Source: a virus | IMG/VR virus record: IMGVR_UViG_3300020020_000134 | Coordinates: 1 to 28,441 of that record | Length of the DNA stretch: 28,441 nt | Direction: 5' to 3' (one strand) | In this document: piece by piece, positions 18,623-20,677 of the stretch | Numbering within the stretch: position 1 is the first letter of the stretch | Layout: each line of letters opens with the position of its first letter | Notes under the pieces: generated by a model | What the model was told of the DNA's origin: nothing | Seen by the model: only the letters and a program-made list of their open reading frames with translations | The model's database searches: none | Position numbers and translations under genes: made by a program

Positions 18623-19094
18623 GGGGTTCGATTTCATCCATGAGCTCTATAACAAGGTCCACGATGGCGGCTATGAGCCCACACAAGAGGACATTGAAGA
18701 GTGCGCGCGGATCATGCAAATCATCATCGAGGCTCTTCGTCCCGTGATGGAAGCCATGGTTGATATTGCCCACGACGTTGTGCATACCCTGATTGATTGG
18801 TATGCTTCGCTTCCTGAGGAGATTCGGGAGGGGCTCAAGCCTTATATGGAGCCAATGGTGGTTATAGAGGAGGGTGTGGACAAGTCCGAGCCCGAGCCTG
18901 AGGCAAGGCCACACTTCAGTGAGCCGGTGTTTACAGTACGCCGCGATCAGCCGAACTACATTCCACCCGGGCAATGGGGTACTCCTCATCAGGGCATAGA
19001 CTTTGGTTTCATTTTTATCGACTCTGAGGATCCAGGTTATGCAGGGCGTGATGATGGAATTCGAGGTCGCCTTGACAGGGGTTCTGGGAGCTGA
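18606..19094 (+). CDS. Unknown protein, 162 residues
   Basis: The protein starts MSATFEGFDFIHELYNKVHD (an in-frame GTG lies 3 nt upstream; AGAGAGGA precedes). Residues 1-80 look helical (ECARIMQIIIEALRPVMEAM, VDIAHDVVHTLIDWYASLPE). The rest is Glu/Pro-rich and probably extended (KSEPEPEARPHFSEPVFTVR) with a Gly/Asp/Arg end. It overlaps the acetyltransferase gene by 17 nt. The -35 of the next promoter lies inside its last codons. No family recognised. Confidence 0.7.
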   Translation: MSATFEGFDFIHELYNKVHDGGYEPTQEDIEECARIMQIIIEALRPVMEAMVDIAHDVVHTLIDWYASLPEEIREGLKPYMEPMVVIEEGVDKSEPEPEARPHFSEPVFTVRRDQPNYIPPGQWGTPHQGIDFGFIFIDSEDPGYAGRDDGIRGRLDRGSGS

Positions 19095-19100
19095 TAGCAT
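19072..19100 (+). promoter_or_regulatory. Leaderless promoter of the 19107 gene
   Basis: TTGACA (19072-19077), 17 nt, TGA-TAGCAT (hexamer 19095-19100), 6 nt, ATGACGAACTCG at 19107. The TGA before the hexamer is the extended -10 form also seen at 12733 and 9918. Confidence 0.88.
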
Positions 19101-19106
19101 CATTAC

Positions 19107-19271
19107 ATGACGAACTCGCCCTTGCCCGATAACATACCTAGGTATGCTATTTTTAAAGGCAAAAGAGCTAGGATTGTAGGTTACGATGGTGGTAAATTTG
19201 ACATCATCGATAATCGAGACAACAAACGACGGGTCACCCGACTTCAACTCAAGTTTCTCAAGGACAAGTGA
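19107..19271 (+). CDS. Very small basic protein from a leaderless gene
   Basis: A 54-residue protein, MTNSPLPDNIPRYAIFKGKR, then ARIVGYDGGKFDIIDNRDNK and RRVTRLQLKFLKDK. The pattern of short strands with a basic end looks like a small beta-barrel (SH3-like) with nucleic-acid binding potential. The leaderless promoter with the ATGACGAAC start is strong support despite the size. The stop is 4 nt before the next ATG. No family recognised. Confidence 0.75.
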   Translation: MTNSPLPDNIPRYAIFKGKRARIVGYDGGKFDIIDNRDNKRRVTRLQLKFLKDK

Positions 19272-19275
19272 TAGA

Positions 19276-19548
19276 ATGGCTACAGCAGCAGTTCCCACTG
19301 AGATGATTTCCACTACGGAGGCCATCAACCAACTTTGGTACGCGATGCCAGAGTCGGAACGAGACAACCTGAGTCGTGAAACTTTCGAGGAGGCGGTTCG
19401 CCAAACTCGCAACCTAATGCTCGACGAGGTGTTCGATAAGTACGAGCTCGGTTATCGTCGAGGAGTCAATCACATCTTGGCTCCTGGGACCGTCGATACC
19501 AACGTGAAGACCTGGCGAGTCGAACAAACAGCTGCTCTCCCAGACTGA
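19276..19548 (+). CDS. Small acidic protein, unknown function
   Basis: A 90-residue protein starting MATAAVPTEMISTTEAINQL. It is mostly helical (WYAMPESERDNLSRETFEEA, VRQTRNLMLDEVFDKYELGY) and ends TNVKTWRVEQTAALPD. A longer frame from 19186 would overlap the preceding gene and is less likely. The ribosome binding site is the weak AAGTGATAGA. It is the last gene before the gene-free region with inverted repeats. No family recognised. Confidence 0.68.
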   Translation: MATAAVPTEMISTTEAINQLWYAMPESERDNLSRETFEEAVRQTRNLMLDEVFDKYELGYRRGVNHILAPGTVDTNVKTWRVEQTAALPD

Positions 19549-20235
19549 GGAGGGGAGGTCCCGGTCAACAGGCGACTGCGGTAGGTCCGATATCTTCGGA
19601 ACAAGAACCGGGACACACAACTAAATACTCCGGCACCAAAATCGAGTCCTTCTGGCGACTCCGTCCATCCAGATGATGGCCCCGGCGCTTTAGCTCTGCG
19701 GGGAACGAGCTACTAATAACTGAATACCTGTCTCGCAATGCATAGAGTACCCGCGCATAACAACCGGGGTGGCAAGGACAGGCGGTTTTGTTCCCCGTGC
19801 AGTAAACGGCCAACAGGGAACCTAGGGCACACACGGATCGGGAGCGCCCCATACCGCAGGTGAGGGTTTAGGCGGCACAATTTCATATGGGACGGTAGCT
19901 CACTCGGTAGAGCGACTGGCAGGTTGAGTGCGCACATGTGCCTGTTACAGGAGGTAGGAAGTTCGATTCTTCCCCGTTCCACAATGCGAGGCCGACACCC
20001 AGCGGTGCAAAGTTGCAACCCTCGCAGAAGTCCTAGGTCTTGCTCAAGATAATTACAGCTAAGCCGGCTATGAGCACGAGGCTGTCCCTAGGCACTAAAC
20101 TTCACATAGACTGCCTCGGGCCATGTTCGTCATAGCTCGCCCGGGGCGCGGGGCCCTTATGAGCCGGGGGTCAATTGGGATTACGGTATAGACAGGCTAC
20201 CATGACTGCCCTCCCCGCATTCACTTTTAAAAAAA
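19549..20235 (+). ncRNA. Candidate structured noncoding RNA region
   Basis: No credible gene in about 690 nt. Inverted repeats are dense: GTCCCGGT 19558-19565 with 19607-19614 (8 bp), enclosing TCCGA/TCGGA (19586-19600); GAGTC/GACTC (19644-19661); CCATC/GATGG (19665-19679); CTGCGGGGAAC 19696-19706 with GTTCCCCGTGCAG 19790-19802 (one bulge); CCTGTC/GACAGG (19727-19782); and TGCGAGG/CCTCGCA (19985-20026). A tRNA-like segment is embedded at 19889. Large phage RNAs such as GOLLD and ROOL are known to occur beside tRNAs, so that class should be tested; identity is not shown. Confidence 0.4.
19889..19981 (+). tRNA. Abnormal tRNA-like sequence, anticodon not assignable
   Basis: Acceptor arms GGGACGG (19889-19895) and CCGTTCC (19974-19980), a D-arm GCTC-ACTCGGTA-GAGC (19898-19913) and a T-arm GGAAG-TTCGATT-CTTCC (19957-19973) are all present and correctly placed. 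Between D- and T-arms are 42 nt instead of about 22, and no normal 5-bp anticodon stem with a 7-nt loop can be found. Possible partial stems are GCAGG/CCTGT and a CCTG-TTA-CAGG hairpin like a long variable arm. The CCA end is not encoded. It may be a decayed tRNA, an interrupted one, or part of a larger RNA. Confidence 0.5.
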
Positions 20236-20238
20236 GCC

Positions 20239-20267
20239 TTGACATGCTAGGCTAGATGCTATAGCAT
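20239..20267 (+). promoter_or_regulatory. Promoter of the secreted-protein gene
   Basis: TTGACA (20239-20244), 17 nt, TAGCAT (20262-20267). The start is expected near 20274, giving a leader of about 35 nt with AAGGAG. It has the same -35/-10 pair as the leaderless class but a normal translated leader. It is preceded by a run of A. Confidence 0.88.
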
Positions 20268-20308
20268 TATTAAGTACCGCTTCATCAACCAACTACAAGG
20301 AGAAACAA

Positions 20309-20677
20309 ATGAAGAAGCTCATTCTCGCCCTGGTCGCAGTTGCGGCTCTGACGTTCGGGTTCGCATCGCCGGCACAGGCCGCACCTCCGCGGGGGGTGAG
20401 CCTCTACTACAACACCCATGGCACCGCTGAGGACCCCAACCAGACCGTGTCGTACTCGGTGCGAAACACGGGCACGCTCAATCAGACCATCGTGCTCGAG
20501 TACAACACTGAAGATGGCTCCATCTTGCAGACGGCTCCCATCGTGATCGAACCCGGTTCCGAGCTCGTCGTCTACGGACTCACTCTCGTCGAGGGCAATG
20601 GGGTCGTACTCAGCGCGACACTGCTCACTGTCTCGGGTTCGAAACTCGATGCGATCCGGGTACGCGACTCGCGCTAA
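20309..20677 (+). CDS. Secreted protein with signal peptide, likely accessory (moron-type) gene
   Basis: A 122-residue protein with a textbook signal peptide: MKKLILALVAVAALTFGFAS then PAQA, cleavage expected after residue 24. The mature part is about 98 residues, beta-rich with many Thr/Val/Asn (VSYSVRNTGTLNQTIVLEYN), no cysteines, like a small immunoglobulin-like or adhesin-type sandwich. It has its own consensus promoter, AAGGAG and a terminator, and looks more GC-rich than neighbouring genes. This isolated-unit layout is typical of morons, phage genes that change the host surface. The exact role is unknown. Confidence 0.82.
   Translation: MKKLILALVAVAALTFGFASPAQAAPPRGVSLYYNTHGTAEDPNQTVSYSVRNTGTLNQTIVLEYNTEDGSILQTAPIVIEPGSELVVYGLTLVEGNGVVLSATLLTVSGSKLDAIRVRDSR

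Follow-up and report, generated by a model that had tools for sequence, protein, structure and literature searches.

A probable new phage RNA made up of domains arranged around an unusual tRNA-like element

The window analysed here is a virus record of 28,441 bases. Based on comparison with other phages, its stem-rich stretch from 19549 to 20235 appears to be a real new phage RNA, in which separately folding domains are strung together on either side of an odd tRNA-like element. Domains related to these are found again in further actinobacterial phages. For at least one of these domains, designated element A, assignment to a new RNA class is supported because its predicted base pairs covary across 13 loci. 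A first-pass annotation of the sequence had proposed a large structured RNA of 690 nt and a possible new class. The structured nature of the region and its tRNA-like element were confirmed, but a single conserved 690-nt RNA was not, as the domains recur singly or in other combinations.

The RNA region and its genomic setting

The primase encoded in the window shares 70% identity with its counterpart in Curtobacterium phage Shrew and 62% with the primases of Microbacterium phages Triscuit and Huwbert, so the host is probably a member of the Microbacteriaceae. The lysin protein, used as another route to relatives, yielded none in viral contigs. The RNA region covers about 690 bases without a supported gene, from the stop codon at 19548 to a promoter at 20239. 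No coding frame with support was found in it, and its two antisense ORFs gave no PHROGs match. The view of the region as gene-free and rich in stems thus stands, and the individual stems named earlier are present.

Exact copies of TTGACA-N16-18-TAGCAT occur five times in the window (7035, 11530, 13013, 19072 and 20239, all on the plus strand), compared to an expectation of 0.01, and are best read as a promoter set of the phage itself. Two of them flank the RNA unit. The first (TTGACA-N17-TAGCAT, 19072..19100, plus strand) precedes two small genes and lies 5' of the operon ending in the RNA region. The second (20239..20267, plus strand), just 3' of the RNA, bounds the region and is predicted to serve the next gene (20309). 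Since these promoters bound the unit, the RNA is probably transcribed as the 3' portion of a short operon. Promoters of the same kind are also located 5' of the syntenic gene in Shrew (L073) and in a metagenomic phage (L068).

The first small gene of the operon (19107..19271, plus strand) encodes 54 amino acids. By tblastn, homologues were identified in Shrew (gene 31) and L068, in both cases 5' of the non-coding region, as well as in Triscuit and Huwbert. The second small ORF (19276..19548, plus strand; also listed from an in-frame upstream start at 19186) ends where the RNA region begins and showed no family match. The -10 box ends six bases before the ATG of the first small gene in the window (19094-19109) and in L068 (near 8192), so the mRNA of this gene is probably leaderless in both phages. 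Downstream of the region, the ORF at 20309-20677 has a signal-peptide-like start (MKKLILALVAVAALTFGFASPAQA) and is a candidate for a small secreted protein. Elsewhere in the window, a Pistol self-cleaving ribozyme was predicted on the minus strand at 1631-1679 (41.9 bits, cut-off 34.5), directly 3' of the stop codon of the minus-strand ORF 1679-2296.

Taken as a single sequence, the structure of the region is not beyond chance. The fold of the whole region had a z-score of +0.19, and 11 of 20 shuffles equalled or exceeded it in stability. Perfect stems of at least 7 bp within 100 nt numbered six compared to 3.9 in shuffles (reached by 44 of 200), and those of at least 8 bp numbered two compared to 1.1 (reached by 51 of 200). 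Neither the folding energy of the region and of its single domains nor the excess of inverted repeats was significant, and both were rejected as evidence. It is comparison with other phages that lifts the region above chance, through covariation in element A and apparent compensatory changes in homologues of elements B, C and the tRNA-like element.

A scan against Rfam and a search for covarying pairs had been suggested as checks by the first-pass annotation. When 19400-20400 was scanned against all families of Rfam 15 (E ≤ 10), only tRNA was matched, all other matches being at chance level (E of 1.1 or worse), which leaves a new class open; the covariation analysis was positive for element A (see below). 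The GOLLD model (RF02032, gathering score 150 bits), searched at E ≤ 10, found nothing in the window or in 14 related records. These results support a structured RNA outside GOLLD and ROOL, neither of which could be matched by eye in the first-pass annotation. No description of the RNA was found in the literature. Comparison with phage records by blastn gave two separate blocks, 19816-19913 (Triscuit and Huwbert) and 19712-19799 (Curtobacterium phage Parvaparticeps). The modules occur in differing combinations, mostly adjoining tRNAs or just 5' of genes.

The region opens with a stem-loop at 19558..19614 (plus strand). As described earlier, its 8-bp outer stem (GUCCCGGU/ACCGGGAC, 19558-19565/19607-19614) encloses an inner hairpin (19587-19600). 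No clear homologue of this stem-loop was found, nor was one found for the stem-rich 3' end (20099..20235, plus strand). Bases 20210-20216 of the latter can pair with 19552-19558 (GGGGAGG), which would close the whole region.

Element A and the accompanying domains

Element A (19815..19879, plus strand) comprises 65 nt that form two predicted hairpins with strongly conserved loops. Its sequence consists of UGGGAACCUAG, a short helix, ACGGA..GGG and a second helix with a 14-base loop, AGGUGAGGGUUUAG. Pattern scans of IMG/VR combined with a covariance model yielded 13 copies in 13 phages, with one strong copy per genome. In the alignment of the 13 sequences fitted to this model, 94.6% of cells were paired and double-sided changes were observed in 7 of 10 pairs. 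The covariation of 0.600 compares to 0.170 ± 0.036 in shuffles and was reached by none of 500, while slid controls remained at or below 0.13. A consistent result (0.391 compared to 0.122) was obtained from nine sequences aligned independently with MAFFT. A candidate pseudoknot, GAACC/GGUUU, is possible; both of its strands are invariant and hence beyond the reach of covariation.

The orientation of element A is that of the downstream tRNA, tRNA-like element or ORF in all 13 loci. This constancy makes an RNA more likely than a DNA site, which is also disfavoured by the covariation of pairs. In the window, Triscuit, Huwbert, L005, L027 and L066, the element is followed by tRNAs or tRNA-like elements. 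It is located inside an array of 26 tRNAs in L027 and 3' of an array of 11 tRNAs in L016. In L010, L012, L013, L016, L019, L025 and L067, it lies within about 100 nt 5' of an ORF. The downstream gene is the same in L013 and L067; L013 carries about 170 extra stem-rich bases between element and gene (66-236), which are absent in L067 (7299-7301). Plasmids yielded no copy of element A, and among 84,980 bacterial and archaeal genomes the only hits to its pattern were three chance matches, all without the second hairpin. No Rfam family was matched by the element in any locus scanned.

The comparisons of element B, element C and the tRNA-like element are based on two to four sequences each. Element B (19696..19802, plus strand) is closed by the 11-bp helix with one bulge noted earlier (19696-19706/19790-19802) and contains an inner helix as well as the conserved motifs GCAAUGC..AGAG and GGGGUGGCAAG. 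Homologues are present in L004, L023 and L068, i.e. Parvaparticeps and two metagenomic phages. The inner helix reads CCUGUC/GACAGG in the window and CCCGU/GCGGG, CCUG/CAGG and CCAUC/GAUGG in the other three, while a second helix is CCCG/CGGG in three sequences and CCCA/UGGG in L068. These apparently compensatory changes were registered by hand, as the aligner had left the helices out of register in the automatic pair count. In the predicted fold of Parvaparticeps, the closing helix has the counterpart CCGCGGGACCAA/UUGGUCUCCGUGG with one bulged base. A gene follows directly 3' of element B in Parvaparticeps and L068. The GUUCCCC strand of the window has two alternative partners, 19700-19706 and the GGGAAC at the start of element A, which may represent a switch or a coincidence.

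A further candidate unit, B' (19619..19690, plus strand), starts with AACUAAAUAC and contains the hairpin GAGUC/GACUC. It was recognised by eye and is weak, as is a unit resembling it 5' of element B in L068. Tandem B-like units starting with AACURAAUA, two in each phage, are located at 19619 and 19718 in the window and at about 8807 and 8875 in L068.

Element C (19983..20098, plus strand) consists of a hairpin (UGCGAGG/CCUCGCA), AGAAG, a second helix and CACUAA. Homologues were identified in Huwbert (L003) and in one metagenomic phage (L041), and in all three loci the element starts 1-3 nt 3' of the end of a tRNA or tRNA-like element. Its second helix is CCUAGG/CCUAGG in the window and CCUGGUG/CACCAGG and CCUCAGG/CCUGAGG in the homologues, so that the fourth-position pair differs in each. 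An HNH endonuclease-like ORF (by eye) lies 3' of element C in L041. A different sequence, element D (GGAAAU..CUACGUAGAGCC..GGUCGGG), was observed in Triscuit (L002 3150-3235), Huwbert (L003 3360-3440) and Mercedes (L024 1526-1590), following the 3' end of a tRNA or tRNA-like element in each; it was not found in the window. When viral contigs were searched with the patterns of elements C and D, nearly all matches were chance matches inside genes, the exception being L041 for element C.

The tRNA-like element and related leaders

The embedded element at 19889..19982 (plus strand) was called as a tRNA by both ARAGORN (tRNA-Asn) and Rfam (RF00005, 44.3 bits, cut-off 29). It has the 7-bp acceptor stem, 4-bp D stem and 5-bp T stem of a tRNA, the acceptor stem and T arm being perfect. 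In place of a canonical anticodon arm with a 5-bp stem and a 7-nt loop, it features an enlarged two-step arm of about 40 nt, including a 29-nt stretch where the RF00005 model has 9. The tRNA-like body is contiguous, and ARAGORN called no tmRNA in the window. The so-called tRNA-Ser of Huwbert (L003 3269-3360) is a homologue with the same enlarged plan. In both arms a short CUG..CAG helix is followed by a second one, GCAGG/CCUGU in the window and GCGAC/GUCGU in Huwbert. The loop reads UUGA-[8-base palindrome]-AUGUG; the palindromes, which coincide in the alignment, are GUGCGCAC (19928-19935) in the window and CCUCGAGG in Huwbert. The tRNA-like element of L068 (8659-8741) contains another perfect 8-base palindrome, GGGGCCCC. 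Dimerisation through putative kissing loops is possible, but several other tRNA-like elements are devoid of such palindromes.

Among the T-arm matches listed (23), six or seven of the seven acceptor pairs are formed in all but one, although these counts are slightly flattering because the acceptor partner taken was the best one among about 140 positions. In these matches, acceptor and T arm are separated by about 20 to more than 90 nt. Non-coding regions with tRNA-like pieces were also found at the syntenic place in Shrew, where the mostly non-coding region spans 520 bases, and in L068.

About 38 Microbacterium phages besides Huwbert have related sequence in common with Mercedes in the gap before DNA polymerase I. 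A tRNA-like element was read in this gap in 15 phages (Mercedes included; L024 and L076-L089), those of WestPM and HerculesXL being identified by eye. Existing annotations of these leaders conflict (tRNA-Thr, -Ser, -Ala, -OTHER or none), and zero tRNA genes are given in the WestPM paper (PMC11749228). Acceptor and T stems stay paired in the leaders despite many sequence changes, while the remainder varies greatly. Fulton, Zepp and Zayuliv keep the tRNA-like element but lack the domain after it. In 12 of the 15 leaders, the next feature is a B-like 3' strand with a CUCC part able to pair with the ribosome-binding site. The polymerase I leaders are linked to the window by this strand and the tRNA-like body only, a weaker connection than that provided by element A.

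Possible roles: processing signal, leader, scaffold or decoy

The reading we favour, tentatively and with rather less than even confidence, is that the tRNA-like element serves as a processing signal which splits the operon RNA into B-A and C parts acting in cis. The region would be transcribed as one chain of independent domains (5' stem, B', B, A, tRNA-like element, C and 3' stem). Host RNase P and the 3' tRNA-processing enzymes would cut at about 19888/19889 and after 19981, releasing a 5' RNA with B-A at its end and a 3' RNA that opens with C. For RNase P, an acceptor stem stacked on a T arm is a minimal substrate. A role in processing is suggested because the part retained among the tRNA-like elements is what RNase P and the 3' enzymes need; the 7-bp acceptor stem and T arm would be kept for them, leaving the anticodon arm free to change. 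The compact domains may protect the new RNA ends, tune expression in cis, or both, an action in cis being suggested by their usual place adjoining tRNAs or directly 5' of genes. Processing signals of this kind are known from tRNA punctuation in mitochondrial transcripts and from MALAT1/mascRNA, in which RNAs are released on either side. Acceptor and T arms are likewise retained there, whereas the element in the window belongs to a phage, its relatives have changing anticodon arms and its cleavage is a prediction. Some observations speak against the processing reading: ordinary tRNAs adjoin element A in Triscuit, Huwbert and L027, the RNA region has no recognisable terminator at its 3' end, the gene beyond it in the window has a promoter of its own, and the comparisons of B, C and the tRNA-like element involve few sequences.

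A broader proposal, which we consider rather doubtful, is a new modular class of tRNA-linked RNAs in actinobacterial phages, with domains swapped as units and dimers formed through self-complementary loops in the anticodon arms of the tRNA-like elements, leading to RNA-only assemblies or a block of tRNA-directed defences. That the modules are translational leaders, in which an RNA domain near the ribosome-binding site gates the start of the next gene, is unlikely. It would fit the seven loci with element A shortly upstream of an ORF and the polymerase I leaders, in which the ribosome-binding site, GGAGUC, can be paired with GACUCC; in Juicer, the two strands have changed together (GGCUCC/GGAGCC). 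However, those leaders have the limited connection to the window described above, and a pure leader role is weakened because the gene after the RNA of the window has its own promoter. Quite unlikely is an RNA-only multimer of the GOLLD or ROOL kind, in which a linker would hold the tRNA-like element and subunits would contact each other through self-complementary loops. GOLLD is a large RNA of phages and prophages near tRNA islands, with a less conserved 5' part and sometimes a tRNA in its linker (PMC12286853). ROOL is phage-borne, often near tRNA islands, several hundred nt long and without a known partner. The RNA in the window resembles them in being phage-borne, tRNA-linked and several hundred nt in length, and both the possible pairing of its ends and the palindromes at the same aligned place in the window and Huwbert, with another in L068, would suit such an assembly. 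Yet neither model was matched, palindromes are missing from several other tRNA-like elements, and domains that are shuffled and often occur alone, recurring separately and in other orders, differ from GOLLD and from a fixed scaffold.

The remaining explanations were judged less probable. It is very doubtful that element A is a put-like antiterminator carrying RNA polymerase through tRNA arrays and operons. The putRNA of phage HK022 has about 70 nt and two stem-loops (PMC9378689), and element A, with its similar size, single strong copy per genome and occurrence irrespective of gene context, is comparable. The likeness is limited to size and plan, with no sequence relation seen and other hosts; moreover, element A is not consistently promoter-proximal, given its positions inside and after tRNA arrays, and an antiterminator would account for one module only. 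The tRNA-like element could be charged, or could act as a decoy. Across phages, such elements combine an intact tRNA body with anticodon arms that are unusual and change fast, as would be expected if they served to divert or antagonise anticodon nucleases of the host or other defences aimed at tRNAs, but this leaves A, B and C unexplained and is improbable. A normal or degenerating tRNA gene whose flanks carry no meaning, as the tRNA-Asn call and the unremarkable stability of the fold could suggest, is highly improbable: other phages conserve the domains on either side, with compensatory changes, element A covaries, and the odd anticodon arm is common to Huwbert.

Phage T4 encodes the stable RNAs C and D, which are unexplained and co-transcribed with its tRNA cluster. 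They are tRNA-linked like the RNA of the window and belong to an unrelated phage and host. With element A as one well-supported motif and several candidates, the domains described here join a small set of unexplained tRNA-linked phage RNAs. Many 'tRNA' annotations in phages are probably degenerate tRNA-like elements, which bears on claims about phage codon usage. As relatives exist in culturable Microbacterium and Curtobacterium phages, transcription, processing and the effects of deletion would be directly testable.
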